Source: a virus
Virus record (IMG/VR): IMGVR_UViG_3300021083_000075
Location: 1-46,204 of that record
DNA: 46,204 nucleotides
Reading direction: 5' to 3' (one strand)
Shown: positions 3,650 to 39,707 of the stretch, piece after piece
How positions within the stretch are numbered: the stretch's first letter is position 1
Layout of the letters: each line of letters starts with the position of its first letter
Program-made: the position numbers and the translations under genes
The notes under the pieces: generated by a model
The model's database searches: none
The model's input: only the letters and a program-made list of their open reading frames with translations
What the model was told of the DNA's origin: nothing

Positions 3650-3841
3650 ATGGAAGACTCAATCGAGCAATACAATAAAAACTTTAAGTTACACGAATAC
3701 CAAAAGGCCATTCTGGAAGAGTATAAATATAAAAATTATTTATTTAGCTCGTCTTTGAGCTTGGCCAGCACGTTACAACCAATGGCATTAGATCATCTTA
3801 GATATGCGATTTTTAATCCTAGTTTTTGTAAGCCTAAATAA
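3650..3841 (+). CDS. small hypothetical protein
   Basis: A 63-residue protein with a charged helical N-terminus and a Ser/Leu-rich middle (YLFSSSLSLASTLQP). The ribosome-binding site AAAGGCTGGTG precedes the ATG. Unrecognised. Confidence 0.5.
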   Translation: MEDSIEQYNKNFKLHEYQKAILEEYKYKNYLFSSSLSLASTLQPMALDHLRYAIFNPSFCKPK

Positions 3842-5552: not shown

Positions 5553-5719
5553 GATACTTAGCCATCGTAGCTGGTATAGCCTTAGCCGGGGTTATCATAT
5601 TTCCGCTTTTGTTTATGAATCACGCCGACTCTCACACTTTTGAGGTTGCAATAATTGCGTATGGAAGCACTAGCTTTGGTTTTTTTATGGGATTCCGAAC
5701 CGGAAAGGATTCTTGGTGA
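5549..5719 (+). CDS. small two-span membrane protein
   Basis: A 56-residue protein, GTG start in a GTGA overlap, GAAAGGA upstream. Hydrophobic segments cover about residues 3-23 and 32-50, separated by MNHADSHTF, with a short basic tail. Likely inserted in the inner membrane; a holin or exclusion role is possible but unsupported. Confidence 0.55.
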   Translation: MRYLAIVAGIALAGVIIFPLLFMNHADSHTFEVAIIAYGSTSFGFFMGFRTGKDSW

Positions 5720-5994
5720 ACTACTTAATCCTATTAGGCGTTTTCATCACTGGATTCTTGGCTTGGGGGGGATGGGAGAAAAGAAAGTCTGACCGTCGCA
5801 CGTCCATTGTTTTCGATGCGCCAACGATGGATGACTTTCACTTTTATCAACAGATGAATACGGTTTACAACCGGGTTATGAATTTACCGTTTTATAACTC
5901 AGACTTGACGATAGGCCAGGGGCGTGAAGAAGTAGATTGGCAAAGAAATTATCGCCAAAACGAAACACTTCCAAAAAATGGACAAAAGCCGTAA
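5716..5994 (+). CDS. membrane-anchored hypothetical protein
   Basis: A 92-residue protein, GTG start in a GTGA overlap. An N-terminal membrane span (YLILLGVFITGFLAWGGW) and a positive-inside WEKRKSDRR precede a soluble, Asn/Gln-rich tail. Type of anchor and partner unknown. Confidence 0.55.
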   Translation: MNYLILLGVFITGFLAWGGWEKRKSDRRTSIVFDAPTMDDFHFYQQMNTVYNRVMNLPFYNSDLTIGQGREEVDWQRNYRQNETLPKNGQKP

Positions 5995-6009
5995 CATTGG
6001 CGACATAGG

Positions 6010-6027
6010 GATCGGTTACGTCCGATC
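6010..6027. other. perfect 6-bp inverted repeat before the small terminase gene
   Basis: GATCGG (6010-6015) and CCGATC (6022-6027) flank TTACGT in the 51-base gap before the ATG at 6046. It could be an RNA hairpin or a protein-binding dyad at the start of the packaging genes. Confidence 0.4.
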
Positions 6028-6045
6028 AGCAAAGAAAGAGCAAAG

Positions 6046-6426
6046 ATGGCTAACAAGCATCCTAAATCTAGATTCCCTAAAGGCGTAAGCGGTAATCCAA
6101 AAGGCCGACCGGCATTGCCGATTGAAGTGCGCCAATTAAAGCAACTCACGATTTCCCAGCTAAACGAAGTAGTTTCCCTAGTGATGGCGTGTTCTTACGA
6201 TGAACTGCTTAAAATGTCGCAAGACGGGAACGCCTCAGTCATTCAGCGAATGTCGGCGTCATTGGCGCTTAACACAATAGCTAAAGGCAACACGTTTGCA
6301 TGGAACGCATTGTTAGAGCAATTCCGAGGCAAGCTTAAAGAGAAGGTTGAAGTCTCGGGCGATGGGTTGAAACCTCAAGTAACTCTAGTGTTTGAGGATA
6401 ACGGGCGAGAGGTGAAGAAGAAATGA
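6046..6426 (+). CDS. small terminase subunit-like protein (DUF5681-type N-terminus)
   Basis: A 126-residue protein that starts with the hallmark FPKGVSGNPKGRP (residues 10-22), typical of DUF5681/terminase-small-like phage proteins. A helical core follows, with QLTISQLNEVVSLVMACSYD and a segment ending ALLEQFRGK. It ends with a strand-rich tail and basic KKK. It lies just upstream of the large terminase, the usual place for the DNA-recognition subunit of the packaging motor. The helix-turn-helix is not obvious by eye, so the role rests on motif and context. Confidence 0.65.
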   Translation: MANKHPKSRFPKGVSGNPKGRPALPIEVRQLKQLTISQLNEVVSLVMACSYDELLKMSQDGNASVIQRMSASLALNTIAKGNTFAWNALLEQFRGKLKEKVEVSGDGLKPQVTLVFEDNGREVKKK

Positions 6427-6530
6427 CAATGAGTTTAGAAGAAGCTAGCGAGATGTTAACCGAGTACACAATTGACTGTCATTTGACCATGCTTAACTTA
6501 GAATTCAACCCAGATCACACGGCAGAGTAG
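6423..6530 (+). CDS. very small acidic protein in the terminase operon
   Basis: A 35-residue protein starting in an ATGA overlap with the previous gene and ending where the next GTG begins. Short acidic helix, no motif. The tight overlaps at both ends support it as a translated coupling gene. Confidence 0.45.
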   Translation: MTMSLEEASEMLTEYTIDCHLTMLNLEFNPDHTAE

Positions 6531-6721
6531 TGAAGCGAAGAGGCATAGCTTACGTCCCGACGCTCAAGAGTTTTAATCGAATGTGTGTGACAATGGGGCT
6601 TAGTACGACTTACCTTTACGAGCTATATCTCGAAAGAGGCCATTTCCCTAGTGAGCGTGACTTATTTCAACCCGAAGAAACCGGAGAAAACTCAGTTGTG
6701 CGGATAATACCGATTGAGTGA
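6530..6721 (+). CDS. small hypothetical protein preceding TerL
   Basis: A 63-residue protein with a GTG start overlapping the previous stop by one base. It has a basic N-terminus and a compact region LKSFNRMCVTMGLSTTYLYE that could be a helix-turn-helix-like turn. It overlaps the terminase start by 8 bases. Function unknown. Confidence 0.5.
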   Translation: MKRRGIAYVPTLKSFNRMCVTMGLSTTYLYELYLERGHFPSERDLFQPEETGENSVVRIIPIE

Positions 6722-8150
6722 AGCGCTTAGGATAGGCCCTCAGAAGGGCGCTCAAGCTAAGTTTGTAAACACGCCTGCCGATATTGCTATTTATGGTGGC
6801 GGGGCCGGTGGTGGAAAGAGCTGGGCGATTGAATACTGTCCTCTCAGGCACATAAACAATCCGCACTTTACCGGCATTATCTTTAGGCGCACTCTCCCCG
6901 AAATCACTAACCCCGGCTCGTTATGGGATGAATCAAAGAAGCTTTACCTACCTTGTGGCGGTGAACCTAACAACTCAGCGCTTATCTGGCGCTTCCCGTC
7001 CGGCTTTTACCTCAAGTTTGCGGGGCTTGAACACGAAGACTCAAAGTTTAAATACCAAGGCACTCAAATCCCTTACATCGGCTTTGATGAGCTGACGCAC
7101 TTTACCGAGACTCAATTCTGGTATCTCCATTCTCGTAACCGTTCTCAATCGGGTGTTGCGGGATACATTCGAGCGTCAACTAACCCTGACCGTAACTCAT
7201 GGGTGCGAAAGCTTATCGATTGGTGGATTAAGGGGGACAAGTATCCCGTCGAAGAGCGTGGCCTACCTATACCCGAGCGGTCCGGCAAGCTACGCTGGTT
7301 TGTGCGCCGTGACGATAAATTCATCTGGGGCAACAGCAAGGAAGAGATTTACAAGCAGGTAGGCCGTGGTCCCGAAGTATTACCGCAAAGCATAACGTTT
7401 ATTCCCGCAACCCTCAAAGACAACAAAATCCTAACCGACGCTGACCCGAGCTATAAAGCCAAACTCTTAGGTATGGGCAACGTTGAAAAGAAACGCCTTT
7501 ATGACGGTAACTGGGACGTAGTGCCTGCCGCCGGTGACGTGTTTGATCGTGGAGACTTCGAGATTATCGACGCATTACCAAACGGATGGATTGATTGCGT
7601 TCGCTTCTGGGATAAGGCGGGAACTAAACCTAGCACCGCTAATCCTGACCCTGACTGGACTCGTGGCGTTCGCATGGTGAAATATCCTAACGGGCTGTAC
7701 GTAATAACGGATATGCGATCAACTCGTGACGAGCCGGGAGCCGTAAACGTACTTGTAAAAAATACTGCATCTCAAGACGGATACCTTTGCAGAGTAAAAG
7801 AACAGCAAGACCCTGGGCAAGCAGGAAAAGAAGAAGCTGAAAACTTTACAAAAATGCTTTCGGGCTATATAGTCAAAACTCAACCGTTCTCTAAGAACAA
7901 GCTTTTACGTTGTGCGGGTGTGCGGGCGCAAGTGAAAGCTCGTAACGTAAAGATACTTAGAGCCAAGACCGAGCCGGACGGGACCAACTGGAATGAAGTG
8001 TTACTCGACGAGCTTCACAACTACAAGGGCGAAAAAGATGAGCGAGACGATATTGTCGATTGTGTCTCGGGAGCTTTCAACGAACTAGCTGGCGTAGCGA
8101 CTATGGACTCAGCGGCAGTTAATCGGATGGGGATGATTCTAGGGGGCTAG
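6714..8150 (+). CDS. terL: terminase large subunit
   Basis: A 478-residue packaging motor ATPase-nuclease starting at TTG. The N-terminal ATPase has Walker A GGGAGGGKS (28-36), Walker B YIGFDE with the catalytic Glu (121-126) and a coupling motif STNP (155-158). The C-terminal RNase H-like nuclease begins near residue 298 with FWDKAGT, with further acidic residues in DPDWTRG and the late DDIVDCVSG. It pumps DNA into the prohead through the portal encoded next and cuts concatemers. Length and motif order are normal for the family. Confidence 0.95.
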   Translation: MSEALRIGPQKGAQAKFVNTPADIAIYGGGAGGGKSWAIEYCPLRHINNPHFTGIIFRRTLPEITNPGSLWDESKKLYLPCGGEPNNSALIWRFPSGFYLKFAGLEHEDSKFKYQGTQIPYIGFDELTHFTETQFWYLHSRNRSQSGVAGYIRASTNPDRNSWVRKLIDWWIKGDKYPVEERGLPIPERSGKLRWFVRRDDKFIWGNSKEEIYKQVGRGPEVLPQSITFIPATLKDNKILTDADPSYKAKLLGMGNVEKKRLYDGNWDVVPAAGDVFDRGDFEIIDALPNGWIDCVRFWDKAGTKPSTANPDPDWTRGVRMVKYPNGLYVITDMRSTRDEPGAVNVLVKNTASQDGYLCRVKEQQDPGQAGKEEAENFTKMLSGYIVKTQPFSKNKLLRCAGVRAQVKARNVKILRAKTEPDGTNWNEVLLDELHNYKGEKDERDDIVDCVSGAFNELAGVATMDSAAVNRMGMILGG

Positions 8151-8151
8151 A

Positions 8152-9699
8152 TTGGCTGACACTCACAAGACGATTCTTGGTGCGGATGGTAAAGACGCTT
8201 CACTTGTATTCGAGAGCGGTACGGTCCGCAATCCGGGCACGATCAACGAAGAGATAATCACTAACCGAGCGCCTGGCGGTCAAGGCGGGTTAAACACTTT
8301 CGGACTAGATGCTGCGCTCAGCCCTTTCCCGTTCGCTGGCAACCAAGGCAGAACAACCCTCTCGAGCATAGACACTTTCGCTAAAAACCTTCGTTATTAT
8401 TTCGTTTCAAAGTTCTATCAGATCTTATCTCAGGCTTATGCCGAATACGGCCTTGTCCGCACAATCGTAGACGTGCCTGTCGAAGACGGTTTCCGTGGTG
8501 GCGTGGACATAAAGACCGATCAGCTAGACGAAAACGATTTAAAGAAACTCAAGCGCTACATCAAGAGACGCCGTGACTTATCCGTTGCCATGAGAGCGAT
8601 TAAGTGGGCTAGGCTTTTTGGCGGTGGCGCTGTCATCCTGTTTGTGAAAGACCAAGACCCCGAAGAACCGTTAGACATGGATTCAATCACTAAAGACTCG
8701 GACGTTGAATTCCGAGCGGTGAACATGTGGGAGCTTATCCCGAGTAACATGAACTACTCTCAAGTTGACCCAACTATTGCGGGTGGCATTCACAACCCCG
8801 AGTTTGACTTTTATATGTACTACGGAGAGAAGATTCACAAAAGCCGTTTGCACCGCATCATGGGGCTAGACGTTCCGAGCATTATCAAGTGGCAACTATT
8901 GGGATGGGGTGCTTCAATCCTTGAACCGTTCATTCGCCCGTTTAACCAATACCTCAAAGCGGCTGATTTAACTTTTGAAGTGTTAGACGAATTTAAACTA
9001 GATGTGTTCTTTATCCAAGGCTTCCAAGAAGCTATGGCGTCGGACGAAGCAATGCGCCTCATGCAAAAGCGTATTCAGTTCGCCAACGGTCGCAAGAACT
9101 ACGTCAACGCTACAATCCTCAGTGAAAAAGATAAATTTGAGCAACGTCAGCTCTCATTTGCTGGTCTCGCTGAAGTGAGCCAAATGAACCTAGTCCAAAT
9201 CGCCGCCGTGGCCCGCATGCCATTGACTAAGATTTTCGGTATCAGCGCCGCTGGGTTCTCCACGGGTCAGGAAGATTTAGAAAACTACAATATGCTCGTT
9301 GAGTCTACCGTCAGAGAACCGGCTGAGGACGTCGTAGCGTGGATGATTGATATTCGCTGTCAAGAAATGTTTGGCGGATATCCAGATGATACCGAGATTG
9401 AATTCAAAACGCTCAGAGTGTTGGGCGGGGCCGAAGAGCAAACGGTGAAGAACGGTAAAGCAACAATCCTAGACAACGCACGTAACCGTGGCGACATCAG
9501 CATGAAGGAATACCGTGAAGCGGTTAACGCCAGTAAGTTGGTAGACGTTAACTTGGATACGACGGACGCTGTTCTGGCTGTGCTTGAAGAAGAAGCGCAA
9601 CCGGTTGATGGGGAAGACGTTGAAGGCGGAGAAGGCGGGGGGAAGTCAGGGAGTTCTAAACCAGCTCCTAAACCAAAACAAAAGGGGAAAGCGATATGA
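8152..9699 (+). CDS. portal protein (DUF1073 family)
   Basis: A 515-residue protein, TTG start with GGGGGC upstream. After a Gly-rich N-terminus it shows the DUF1073 core: YGLVRTIVDVPVEDGFRGG, then WARLFGGGAVILF. A long helical stem and wing region follow, and a Gly/Pro/Lys-rich tail. This family forms the dodecameric portal at the head vertex in many phages. It directly follows TerL and ends in an ATGA overlap with the next gene. No catalytic motif is expected. Confidence 0.9.
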   Translation: MADTHKTILGADGKDASLVFESGTVRNPGTINEEIITNRAPGGQGGLNTFGLDAALSPFPFAGNQGRTTLSSIDTFAKNLRYYFVSKFYQILSQAYAEYGLVRTIVDVPVEDGFRGGVDIKTDQLDENDLKKLKRYIKRRRDLSVAMRAIKWARLFGGGAVILFVKDQDPEEPLDMDSITKDSDVEFRAVNMWELIPSNMNYSQVDPTIAGGIHNPEFDFYMYYGEKIHKSRLHRIMGLDVPSIIKWQLLGWGASILEPFIRPFNQYLKAADLTFEVLDEFKLDVFFIQGFQEAMASDEAMRLMQKRIQFANGRKNYVNATILSEKDKFEQRQLSFAGLAEVSQMNLVQIAAVARMPLTKIFGISAAGFSTGQEDLENYNMLVESTVREPAEDVVAWMIDIRCQEMFGGYPDDTEIEFKTLRVLGGAEEQTVKNGKATILDNARNRGDISMKEYREAVNASKLVDVNLDTTDAVLAVLEEEAQPVDGEDVEGGEGGGKSGSSKPAPKPKQKGKAI

Positions 9700-10319
9700 G
9701 TTTGATTAAACAGGATTACGGCTGGTTCACTCTGGAAGAGGTTAAACAAGCTGTGGCAATGGATAGGTTGAGTAAACTTGACGGAAATCTCACTAAGACC
9801 TCAGAGTCTTTGGGAATCACTCGCCCTACCCTTAACTCGATTATCGAAGCTTACGAGAAACGCTCCGCCGAAGATAAAGAACGAATCAAAGTAAACGTTG
9901 CGCTCGTTCAAAAAGTAGAGAGCCAACACATGCAAGCTTTTGAACCTGACCCAGCTACCGGATTCTCAAGACCTAAAGCGCCCGAGCCGTTGCCTGATAT
10001 GAAGTTGTTTATGCCTAAAGACGAAAAGCTGAATACCGCCATCGAGAAGGCTATCGCTGAATCCGAAAACTCAGTTGACCGCAAGAACTTGTTTAAACCA
10101 AGTGTGCAAGCGTCGCCCGTGATTAAGCCGGTTGACCCAATGGTGGACAAGGCGAAGGCTGAGCAAGAGCGTTTCGCTAAGATGGATAAGACGCCATACT
10201 CCGAGAAGTACAAAATGGCTGACCGTGAAAAGCGGGAACGTGCCGAATTAGGTTTAAGCCCTATCGAGCAAGCCCGTGAGATTCAAAAGCAAAAGGCAAA
10301 GAAGACAAAAGTAGGCTAA
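9696..10319 (+). CDS. HTH-containing protein between portal and MuF-like gene
   Basis: A 207-residue protein. Residues about 25-55 read as a Fis-type helix-turn-helix (DGNLTKTSESLGITRPTLNS). The rest is charged, Lys/Glu/Pro-rich and probably extended, ending in KQKAKKTKVG. DNA binding is inferred from the HTH. In this position it may help packaging or head assembly, or be a regulator that moved into the head operon. I recognise no exact family. Confidence 0.6.
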   Translation: MSLIKQDYGWFTLEEVKQAVAMDRLSKLDGNLTKTSESLGITRPTLNSIIEAYEKRSAEDKERIKVNVALVQKVESQHMQAFEPDPATGFSRPKAPEPLPDMKLFMPKDEKLNTAIEKAIAESENSVDRKNLFKPSVQASPVIKPVDPMVDKAKAEQERFAKMDKTPYSEKYKMADREKRERAELGLSPIEQAREIQKQKAKKTKVG

Positions 10320-11327
10320 GTGATAGTCCGCAAGTTACAACCAATTCGAGCGCCTGAAAAAGAGTTTGAGGAAATAGAGAAACGCCTCAAGCGCCTATTC
10401 CTCGAATTGGTTTATCGTCCGATACTCAAAGATTTAAACCTACCCGAAAAAGCTATCTTCAATTCTGTGCCAGTTTATCCGGCGCTCAATCTCGCTCTAA
10501 GCTCTGGACGCCTCACATTCAATCAAGGCGTGTTCTCGGGAAAGTTTAACGGTGCTGTTTCTAAAGAGCTAAGAGACTTAGGAGCTAAGTGGGACTTCGG
10601 GGATAAAGTTTTCCGTCTCAACAAAGACAAGCTGCCAGTTGAACTCACCCGAGCGATAGACCTAAGTGAAACCCGTTTTGTAAAAAAACTAGACAGCATT
10701 GACCATAGAATCGAAAAGGTTCTTTACGAAAGCCCGTGGGATAAATTTAATTTCTCAGATTTATTTGACAAAAGTATTTTTAAGGTAGATAAAGAGTTTA
10801 GGAAGAACGTAGAGAAGATTTCGATTCAACCTAAGGTATCGGATGAACAAGCAAAGAAGATTTCCGAGATGTGGCAAAGCACTTTCAAGATTAAGTGCAA
10901 AGACTTCGGGACTGAACAAATGCTTGATCTCCGAGAAAAGGTTAAAAAAGCGTATCTAGCTGGTGACCGTTACGGAACATTAGTTAAAACCTTCCAAACG
11001 TCCTACGGTATCAGCGAACGCAAAGCGGAATTCTGGGCAAGAAACGAAACACGAAGCCTAGTGAGCGCTTATCAGGGTGCAAGGTATGTTGAGGCTGGAG
11101 TTCCGGGGTATCACTGGAAAGCGGTGACTGGCAGTTCGGCTCACCCGACTCGACATAGACACCGTGAGCTTTCTGACATGAGCGCTAAAGGTCAAGTCTT
11201 TTACTGGAATGACCCACCTAGGGTGACTGAGTTGGGCGCAAAGGGGCCGGTGAGATACGAAAACCCCGGAGGCGATTACAATTGTAGGTGTACCGGAATT
11301 CCAGTGGTAGAACGGAAAAGCAAATGA
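10320..11327 (+). CDS. minor head protein, Mu gpF / SPP1 gp7-like
   Basis: A 335-residue protein, GTG start. The C-terminal 100 residues carry the MuF pattern: ARNETRSLVSAYQGARY, GYHWKAVTG, RHRHRELSDM, then FYWNDPP and a terminal NCRC (Cys motif near residue 325). MuF-type proteins sit inside the capsid at the portal and help head morphogenesis or are ejected with the DNA. The N-terminal half is charged and helical without a known toxin domain. It ends in an ATGA overlap with the protease-scaffold gene. Confidence 0.85.
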   Translation: MIVRKLQPIRAPEKEFEEIEKRLKRLFLELVYRPILKDLNLPEKAIFNSVPVYPALNLALSSGRLTFNQGVFSGKFNGAVSKELRDLGAKWDFGDKVFRLNKDKLPVELTRAIDLSETRFVKKLDSIDHRIEKVLYESPWDKFNFSDLFDKSIFKVDKEFRKNVEKISIQPKVSDEQAKKISEMWQSTFKIKCKDFGTEQMLDLREKVKKAYLAGDRYGTLVKTFQTSYGISERKAEFWARNETRSLVSAYQGARYVEAGVPGYHWKAVTGSSAHPTRHRHRELSDMSAKGQVFYWNDPPRVTELGAKGPVRYENPGGDYNCRCTGIPVVERKSK

Positions 11328-37365: not shown

Positions 37366-37593
37366 GTGATAAAGCCAATTAAAAACGAATTGACTCAAGA
37401 GAATTTCGACAAGATGAAATCGGCTATCACTATGCTCGGGCGGTCTTTAAAGGTTTACGTTAAGTTTTGTGACGGGTGCCGTAGACGTCCTGCTGAAATG
37501 GGACCGTGTAGGGTTTGCCAAGGTGCAAGAAGGTTTTTAAATTTGTCCAAAAACAAGCTGAGCAAAATCGAAAGTTTGAAAGGTGCTTTTTAA
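37366..37593 (+). CDS. small zinc-binding protein
   Basis: A 75-residue protein, GTG start, with CDGCRRRPAEMGPCRVCQGA (40-59), a DnaJ/ribbon-like four-Cys site embedded in basic sequence. It may bind nucleic acid. It ends two bases before the first structured repeat described at 37596. Confidence 0.65.
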   Translation: MIKPIKNELTQENFDKMKSAITMLGRSLKVYVKFCDGCRRRPAEMGPCRVCQGARRFLNLSKNKLSKIESLKGAF

Positions 37594-37595
37594 AG

Positions 37596-37674
37596 ACTCA
37601 GTGCGTCGCATAACTTTTGAATTCGCAACACTGAGTGGCGATGTAGAAAAGTACGTAGGGGAGAGTGCGACGCA
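37596..37674 (+). other. crossing inverted repeats before the lipoprotein gene
   Basis: ACTCAGTG (37596-37603) pairs perfectly with CACTGAGT (37629-37636). TGCGTCGCA (37602-37610) pairs with TGCGACGCA (37666-37674). The two helices cross, giving pseudoknot-like or mutually exclusive folds. Read as DNA, GTGCG-W-CGCAT occurs twice (37601-37611 and 37665-37675) as operator-like near-palindromes. The 113 bases from 37594 to 37706 contain no gene. Confidence 0.5.
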
Positions 37675-37706
37675 TTAAGTTTTTAAATAAAGTTAAGAGG
37701 TGATTT

Positions 37707-37859
37707 ATGAAAAAGTTAGTTTTGCTTTTGGCTTTATCTGCTTTGGCAGTTGGTTGCGGGAATCAGGCTCAACCGGTCGGACCGGCGATAGGTTCGGCGG
37801 CATACGTTGCGGGCGGTGGTGGTCCTACTTTGAACGTCGGCATAACGGTAGGTAACTGA
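37707..37859 (+). CDS. small lipoprotein
   Basis: A 50-residue protein starting MKKLVLLLALSALAVGCG, a textbook signal peptide with lipobox AVGC (lipidated Cys17). Mature part is short and Gly/Pro/Val-rich without charged motifs. The ribosome-binding site AGAGGTG precedes the ATG. Phage lipoproteins are often superinfection-exclusion factors or outer spanins; here it lies outside the lysis region, favouring exclusion or surface change. Confidence 0.7.
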   Translation: MKKLVLLLALSALAVGCGNQAQPVGPAIGSAAYVAGGGGPTLNVGITVGN

Positions 37860-38104: not shown

Positions 38105-38133
38105 TTGACGGTTTAAAGTTGAGAGAGTATAAA
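38105..38133 (+). promoter_or_regulatory. promoter TTGACG-N17-TATAAA before the helicase loader
   Basis: -35 at 38105-38110, spacer 17, TATAAA at 38128-38133; predicted transcription start near 38140. One arm of a long inverted repeat lies inside the spacer. Leader to the ATG at 38241 is about 100 bases. Confidence 0.78.
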
Positions 38134-38198
38134 TTCCAAACGGGCCAAGTGGGGGCTCATTGCTACCGGCTCCCTGTTAGGTAGACCACTCTCTCAAC
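38118..38198 (+). ncRNA. 11-bp inverted repeat enclosing an H-type pseudoknot
   Basis: GTTGAGAGAGT (38118-38128) is perfectly complementary to ACTCTCTCAAC (38188-38198). Inside, GGGGGC (38151-38156) pairs with GCTCCC (38169-38174) and CTACC (38163-38167) with GGTAG (38180-38184). These cross with loops of 6, 1 and 5 bases, textbook H-type geometry. The pseudoknot lies within the predicted leader (+12 to +45). The outer 5' arm lies in the promoter, so the outer repeat may act as a DNA dyad or only in read-through RNA. No known riboswitch class recognised. Confidence 0.55.
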
Positions 38199-38240
38199 CC
38201 TCACGTAACCCTATAAATTTAATTCCTTAGTGGAGGAAAT

Positions 38241-38855
38241 ATGCAGACACCAAGTTTTCGAGAACTCATTGATAAAACCGCCAAAGAAGTCGCCGAAGGT
38301 AGCCACGTTTATAAACCAGAAAATATCCAAGACGCTATAGAACTTAATGACGTTCCTTTGCTTTATCGGAATGCAAAGCTTGAAGATTTTCCTGACAAAC
38401 TCAATTCAGAACAAAGCGTTTATTTTTGGAGCTCCGAACCCGGAACCGGCAAAACACATTTAGCGTGGGCGTTCTACATTCAAGAGCGGTTAAGATCGTC
38501 AAAGCAAAGGCCTATTTTTAGCACTTTCGGGGCATTACAGCTTCGCTTGCGGGCGTCGATGGATAAAAGCCAAGAGAGTGAAGAGGAAATCATCAAAGAA
38601 TTTTCTACTCGCAAACTCGTGATACTGGATGACTTGGGCGGATTGCGTGTTGGAAACGCTAGCGATTATTCAACATCGATGATTTTTGAAATACTTAATA
38701 ACCGGTATTCATGGAAGCGCCAAACTATTATCACTAGCAACAAATCTCCTCAAGAAATTGCCGATAATTTTGATGCTCGGATAGCTTCTCGAATAGTTGG
38801 AATGTGCGAATTGATTGAACTAAAAGGCGAGGATAGGCGCTTAGCGAATGGATAA
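38241..38855 (+). CDS. DnaC/IstB-like helicase loader ATPase
   Basis: A 204-residue AAA+ ATPase with GGAGG upstream. Walker A EPGTGKT (66-72), Walker B LVILDDL (126-132), sensor TSN (165-167) and a likely arginine finger in DARIASRI (178-185). This is the DnaC-type loader that places a replicative helicase on phage DNA. No helicase gene of DnaB type is present, so it presumably loads the host helicase. It overlaps the next gene by 8 bases. Confidence 0.85.
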   Translation: MQTPSFRELIDKTAKEVAEGSHVYKPENIQDAIELNDVPLLYRNAKLEDFPDKLNSEQSVYFWSSEPGTGKTHLAWAFYIQERLRSSKQRPIFSTFGALQLRLRASMDKSQESEEEIIKEFSTRKLVILDDLGGLRVGNASDYSTSMIFEILNNRYSWKRQTIITSNKSPQEIADNFDARIASRIVGMCELIELKGEDRRLANG

Positions 38856-39357
38856 CAAAATGGGGCGCTATCCAAAAGACCACCCTAGATCGGGTGGGTA
38901 CATAGTCATGTGGGCTTCTCAAACACTTAACTCTGAAAAGCTAAGACACCCTTTGATATTGGGGTGTTTGGTTAAGGTTGTTTGTGTGGCTCAATTGGTT
39001 GATTTCACTACTGGGCGTTTTGAGAAGGGCGGTATGCCTTTTTCAATGCAAACTATCGCTCACAGGGCCGGAATAACCGTAGAGCAATTTAATAACTTGA
39101 TCGGACTTGGCTTAGTCAAAACCGAGGTAGTTAATTCTGAGCCTGTTTATTCAATAAAATCGTGGAATGAACACCAAAACCCTAAAGATTCTGGAAGTGC
39201 GGAAAGATTCGCACTTAAAGAGCGGAAAGAACCGACTTTTTCTGATAAAAAAAGTGCGACTATCCAAGCATCATTCACCAAGCATCATTCATCAGATCAT
39301 CATGCAACAAGCAGTAAGTCGAAATATAATTCTAAAAGTCGAAAGGTAAGTGTATGA
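38848..39357 (+). CDS. putative replication-initiation/DNA-binding protein
   Basis: A 169-residue protein coupled to the loader. The first 110 residues resemble winged-helix replisome organisers: LRHPLILGCLVKVVCVAQL, PFSMQTIAHRAGITVEQFNN as a probable helix-turn-helix, then GLVKTEV. A flexible Ser/Lys/His-rich tail follows. Together with the loader it is the best candidate for origin recognition. ATGA overlap with the next gene. Confidence 0.6.
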   Translation: MDNKMGRYPKDHPRSGGYIVMWASQTLNSEKLRHPLILGCLVKVVCVAQLVDFTTGRFEKGGMPFSMQTIAHRAGITVEQFNNLIGLGLVKTEVVNSEPVYSIKSWNEHQNPKDSGSAERFALKERKEPTFSDKKSATIQASFTKHHSSDHHATSSKSKYNSKSRKVSV

Positions 39358-39707
39358 AAGATTTAAAATTCAGAGCGTGGCTTTTAAAAACTAACCGCAT
39401 GGTAAATGTAACCGGCCTTTGTTGGCAATCAAAGGGATTAGCGGTTGAGTGTTTGAGAGTCGGTTGGGAAGATATTGATTCTAAAATAGCTCAAGAGTTT
39501 TGGTGGAATGAAACCGAATGTATTCTTTTGCAAGGTACTGGGTTAATAGATTTTAACGGCAACGAAATCTTTGAGGGTGACATAGTGGAAAGATGGAATG
39601 ATTTTAATTACCGAGTTGTAATGAAAAGCCTTCGTGAAGTTTGGACGTTAGATAAATCGGCGAGAATCATTGGGAACATCTACGAGCAACCGGAGCTTGT
39701 GAAATGA
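39354..39707 (+). CDS. YopX family protein
   Basis: A 117-residue protein. KFRAWLLKTNRMVNV at the start and TGLIDFNGNEIFEGDIVE (62-79) are the hallmark of YopX proteins, small barrel-forming phage proteins of unknown function. IGNIYEQPEL at the C-terminus also matches. Coupled to neighbours by ATGA on both sides. Confidence 0.88.
   Translation: MKDLKFRAWLLKTNRMVNVTGLCWQSKGLAVECLRVGWEDIDSKIAQEFWWNETECILLQGTGLIDFNGNEIFEGDIVERWNDFNYRVVMKSLREVWTLDKSARIIGNIYEQPELVK

Follow-up and report, generated by a model that had tools for sequence, protein, structure and literature searches.

A conserved structured leader RNA with a candidate Shine-Dalgarno decoy before a phage helicase-loader gene

The leader of about 100 nt that precedes a DnaC-like helicase-loader gene in a virus is very probably a genuine structured RNA, a conclusion well supported by three related sequences. 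It lies in a DNA stretch of 46,204 nucleotides (the window; IMG/VR record IMGVR_UViG_3300021083_000075), a virus record whose genes include those for terminase, portal and baseplate. Comparison of the three leaders supports a hairpin, P2, an enclosing helix L:R with a short distal helix P0, and an alternative helix L:M. Judged from the sequences and from folding models, these features may best be explained by a two-state translational switch (probability roughly 0.58). The leader probably tunes the amount of loader made; switching itself, its polarity and its trigger are presumptive.

The locus and the parts of the leader

The elements of the locus, all on the plus strand, are as follows (L002 and L008 are two related viral contigs; SD, Shine-Dalgarno).

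38105–38133, +: sigma70-like promoter, TTGACG-17-TATAAA, read from the sequence
38142–38144, +: P0 5′ strand, GGG, pairing with 38209–38211; UGG/CCA in L002, GGC/GCC in L008
38148–38156, +: arm L, AGUGGGGGC, a near copy of the SD region (7 of 8 bases in all three genomes), pairing with M or R in mutually exclusive helices
38163–38167, +: P2 5′ strand, CUACC, with two compensatory double changes in the relatives
38168–38179, +: P2 apical region, GGCUCCCUGUUA, with a short upper stem GGC/GUU and a bulged A, or the 3′ strand of an earlier proposed pseudoknot
38180–38184, +: P2 3′ strand, GGUAG, from comparison with the relatives
38186–38190, +: arm M, CCACU, complementary at 5 of 5 positions to L and to the SD; CUAUU in L002, UCGCU in L008
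38198–38204, +: arm R, CCCUCAC, complementary to L and, in the window, less well to the SD
38209–38211, +: P0 3′ strand, CCC, pairing with 38142–38144
38223–38238, +: local hairpin UUCCUU-AGUG-GAGGAA containing the SD, predicted in all three leaders
38229–38236, +: SD region, AGUGGAGG, a second copy of L, from comparison with L
38241–38855, +: DnaC-like helicase loader, the gene behind the leader (phrog_50, E 4.5e-38; PF01695, IstB family, E 1.2e-12)
38848–39357, +: gene overlapping the loader 3′ end, without Pfam or PHROG match

From the position of the promoter, the loader transcript is predicted to start at about 38139–38141. A consensus promoter scan, in which the sixth −10 position must be T, did not report this promoter. 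Similar hexamers, also spaced by 17 bp, are found in the relatives (TTGATA/TATAGA at 422–450 of L002; TTGACT/TAAAAA at 3816–3844 of L008). The gene at 38848–39357 shares 59% and 24% identity with the post-loader genes of L002 and L008, respectively, and the early operon continues behind the loader with a YopX-family protein (39354–39707; PF09643, E 5.8e-18). The loader leader showed no intrinsic terminator with a T-run, for which reason transcriptional attenuation was set aside.

Two other stretches of the window are of structural interest in their own right. Positions 37590–37715, before a small lipoprotein-like ORF (start 37707), can form a long imperfect hairpin closed by TGCGTCGCAT/GTGCGACGCA (−35.0 kcal/mol, z −4.5 against shuffles), and a perfect 12-bp inverted repeat, its arms about 50 nt apart, occupies 10339–10412, just past the boundary of the ORFs 9696–10319 and 10320–11327.

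Comparative evidence for the fold

The loaders of L002 and L008 are 66% and 61% identical to that of the window, and their leaders have the same length and plan and stand directly before the loader. By eye, L008 also carries ORFs resembling an IS1595-type transposase and a DNA cytosine methyltransferase behind its replication genes (5680–7666). Further members were sought by loader-protein, loader-alignment and second-gene scans of viral contigs, by one genome-contig scan, by three DNA patterns, by an unaligned structural descriptor and by a covariance model run over about 1.7 Mb of fetched loci. No leader beyond these three appeared in the viral-contig scans, with the descriptor or with the covariance model, or among the genome-scan and DNA-pattern matches listed. 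The covariance model matches once per genome and finds no leader before the distant loaders of L009–L012. Searches of phage records by blastn with the leader or the 3-kb region gave no convincing match, and the phage and plasmid matches listed for the loader by tblastn have 26–37% identity. Rfam gives no match at gathering scores across the whole window and none at E ≤ 10 for the three leaders. The leader, best read as a cis-acting RNA not described before, is carried by a narrow phage group of at least three members, namely the window, L002 and L008.

Within this group, pairing is kept while sequence changes. P2 is CUACC/GGUAG in the window, CAACC/GGUUG in L002 and CUAUC/GAUAG in L008, at the same place in the leader. 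The helix L:R reads GUGGGGG/CCCUCAC, AAUAGGAGUCA/UGACUCCUAUU and GCGAGGGCU/AGUCCUCGC in the same order, reaching 11 bp in L002 and 9 bp in L008, and L:M reads AGUGG/CCACU, AAUAG/CUAUU and AGCGA/UCGCU. When the three sequences are aligned automatically with MAFFT from arm L to arm R, L:R with P2 gives 97.6% of cells paired and six double changes, as high in only 1 of 500 shuffles; sliding by one to three columns lowers pairing to 33–48%. The alternative, L:M with P2, gives 96.6% and five double changes on the same alignment (2 of 500 shuffles). RNAalifold itself predicts P0, L:R and P2 on a longer automatic alignment. On a hand alignment it yields z values of −8.1 for the whole leader, −17 from R to the SD and −7 for P2 alone (0, 0 and 1 of 1000 column shuffles as good), values that are optimistic since this alignment was drawn up with the pairings known. 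A descriptor specifying P2, L:M and L:R at set distances, with no demand on sequence, has 24 other matches in 4.0 million positions, or about 6 per million.

These results bear on an earlier note on the same DNA, which had proposed a looping operator pair, formed by an 11-bp dyad, together with an H-type pseudoknot made of GGGGGC/GCTCCC and CTACC/GGTAG. The letters are as cited, at 38151–38156/38169–38174 (with one G-U) and 38163–38167/38180–38184, and the two pairings do cross, with plausible loops of 6, 1 and 5. The perfect dyad is likewise present (GTTGAGAGAGT, 38118–38128; ACTCTCTCAAC, 38188–38198), with its left arm in the promoter spacer; with a start at about 38139–38141, this arm would therefore stay untranscribed. 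Perfect inverted repeats of at least 11 bp with spacers of 20–90 nt number three separate cases in the window versus a mean of 1.6 in dinucleotide shuffles, so that the dyad alone is no more than chance would give in a 46-kb genome. It is absent from L002 and L008, where the left arm has no counterpart, and paired operator sites flanking the promoter, as for DNA looping, are not conserved in these two relatives; the proposal of a looping operator pair falls with it. The right arm overlaps the conserved arm M and a pyrimidine tract.

The two helices of the pseudoknot fare differently. The second, CTACC/GGTAG, is P2 and is kept with two double changes. The first has at most three contiguous pairs in the relatives and no compensatory change, which is the kind of loss that its proposer had named as refuting it. 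The best contiguous pairing of this type is 8 bp in the window (P = 0.07 against shuffled arms) and 3 bp in the relatives (P = 0.98–0.99), and on the automatic alignment 65% of its cells are paired, with no double change. The apical region of P2 instead has an upper stem in the relatives (GAU/AUC in L002, CC/GG in L008), its pseudoknot pairing not being conserved. As judged from the comparison, the G-rich arm keeps M and R as its partners, rather than the P2 loop; the pairings L:M, L:R and R:SD or M:SD and the L–SD repeat are additional to the elements first described. What stands of the earlier view is that the loader leader contains a structured RNA through which translation could be affected, while dyad and first stem are mostly unsupported. 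The original model can be given hardly any credence, being largely refuted for these three sequences.

Competing pairings and rival readings

The resemblance between L and the SD is found separately in each phage. Seven of eight bases are the same in AGUGGGGG/AGUGGAGG (window), AAUAGGAG/AAUAGGGG (L002) and AGCGAGGG/AGCGAGGA (L008), the word itself differing from genome to genome, and in every case M is complementary to both copies at 5 of 5 positions. Arms L, M, R and SD taken from different phages pair more poorly than those of a single phage. Because L so closely resembles the SD, R and M could also pair with the SD, and R has two competing partners. In an alignment-free test for a single arm complementary to the SD as well as to an arm upstream, none of 1000 shuffles was as good in L002 or in L008; in the window this dual complementarity is no better than in shuffles. 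The R:SD hairpins have 8–10 bp in L002 and L008, and R:SD is weak in the window, with an A-C mismatch and a G-U pair.

Given these pairings, a mechanism can be proposed in which the leader would act in cis as a structured RNA and L and the SD would compete for the complementary arms R and M. In the resting fold L:R, R could not cover the SD; the energy model favours this fold in the window and L002 and, by a small margin, in L008. A factor holding L in the compact L:M/P2 fold would free R, which could then pair with the SD and block ribosome entry. Candidate triggers are a small ligand or a replication protein that regulates its own synthesis (the loader or its neighbour), in the manner of T4 gp32 and gp43. 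Arm M may also pair with the SD as a pseudoknot while L:R is formed, in which case the polarity could reverse.

Predicted energies, with pseudoknots left out, are −26.9, −35.1 and −31.6 kcal/mol for the L:R state (window, L002 and L008) and −15.6, −24.5 and −26.3 kcal/mol for the state combining L:M and R:SD. When L:M and P2 are enforced, the probability of R:SD rises from 0.007 to 0.99 in L002 and from 0.43 to 1.0 in L008, and reaches only 0.17 in the window. There the SD is predicted to be mostly masked by its local hairpin in either state (hairpin energies of −5.3, −3.5 and −2.2 kcal/mol in the window, L002 and L008 leaders), and R:SD is weak; the energies therefore predict no switch in the window. 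In unconstrained folding, L:M is not the minimum-energy pairing of any complete leader or growing transcript.

Such values lend weight to a static leader, in which P0, L:R and P2 would form one stable 5′ structure serving mRNA stability, ribosome standby or a constant damping of translation, and the likeness of L to the SD would be a by-product of a G-rich, SD-like arm that does not switch. In the window and L002 no fold has lower energy than L:R, and it is there that L:R is best supported; the weak R:SD pairing of the window, and its SD masked in either state, also speak for this reading. It is nevertheless unlikely, as it leaves three things unexplained: the match of L to the SD in every genome, the fit of M to both, and the long R:SD hairpins of L002 and L008. 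If the SD, predicted to be mostly paired in all three leaders, were simply to open with temperature or during transcription, an RNA thermometer or a purely kinetic timer would need no ligand, and L:R and R:SD lie about 5–11 kcal/mol apart when no pseudoknot is counted; the compensated upstream arms L, M and P2 are however more elaborate than a thermometer hairpin requires, which makes this very improbable.

The arms can also be read as DNA sites. All four (L, SD, M and R) repeat a single word of 5–8 bp that is particular to each phage, two of them in direct and two in inverted orientation, and a repressor or replication initiator of the phage, differing in specificity from phage to phage, might bind there (operator or origin iterons); a position ahead of replication genes would also fit an origin or operator. 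Against this, covariation is seen in P2 and P0, whose sequences have nothing in common with the repeat word, the promoter lies upstream of the repeats, and full-length arms do not recur in the 46-kb window or in the 8–10 kb examined of the relatives, except for one 8-mer in L014. Binding sites of this kind are a distinctly improbable explanation.

For the two-state switch, a further step is doubtful and only tentatively suggested: the leader may represent a so far undescribed kind of riboswitch or protein-sensing RNA in phages, in which an SD decoy would gate loader translation and hence time the start of phage DNA replication.

Comparison with known leader RNAs

Translational riboswitches use anti-SD and anti-anti-SD arms, one arm pairing with the SD or with an upstream competitor. 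In L002 and L008 one arm of the present leader could likewise pair with the SD or with an upstream competitor, with a hairpin domain upstream, whereas in the window such an alternative is no better than in shuffles; the covariation described above marks a conserved structured domain, as in a translational riboswitch class. Unlike the known translational riboswitches, this leader is without an Rfam match (E ≤ 10), and the searches gave it in three sequences.

Among phages, leader RNAs that control replication genes are known in detail mainly from the T4-like group, and the nearest functional precedents are the autogenous leaders of T4 genes 32 and 43. In the gene 32 leader, a pseudoknot serves autogenous repression by gp32, and gene 43 has a single hairpin-loop operator for autoregulation of DNA polymerase (PMC3014915). 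As in gene 32, a phage replication gene is preceded by a structured 5′ leader upstream of the ribosome-binding site, with translation as the proposed target; the present leader differs in its non-conserved pseudoknot stem, its putative SD decoy with mutually exclusive helices and its DnaC-like loader gene. A conserved H-type pseudoknot upstream of the ribosome-binding site, of the gene 32 type, was not found, stem 1 being lost in the relatives, and membership of that type is therefore not claimed. Like the present leader, the gene 43 operator has a hairpin ahead of a phage replication gene's start codon, but it lacks an SD-mimic arm. The three diverged versions of the loader leader amount to ready-made compensatory mutations. 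If the proposed switch is correct, a compact leader with an evolving SD decoy before a helicase loader would be an independent case beside those of the T4-like phages.
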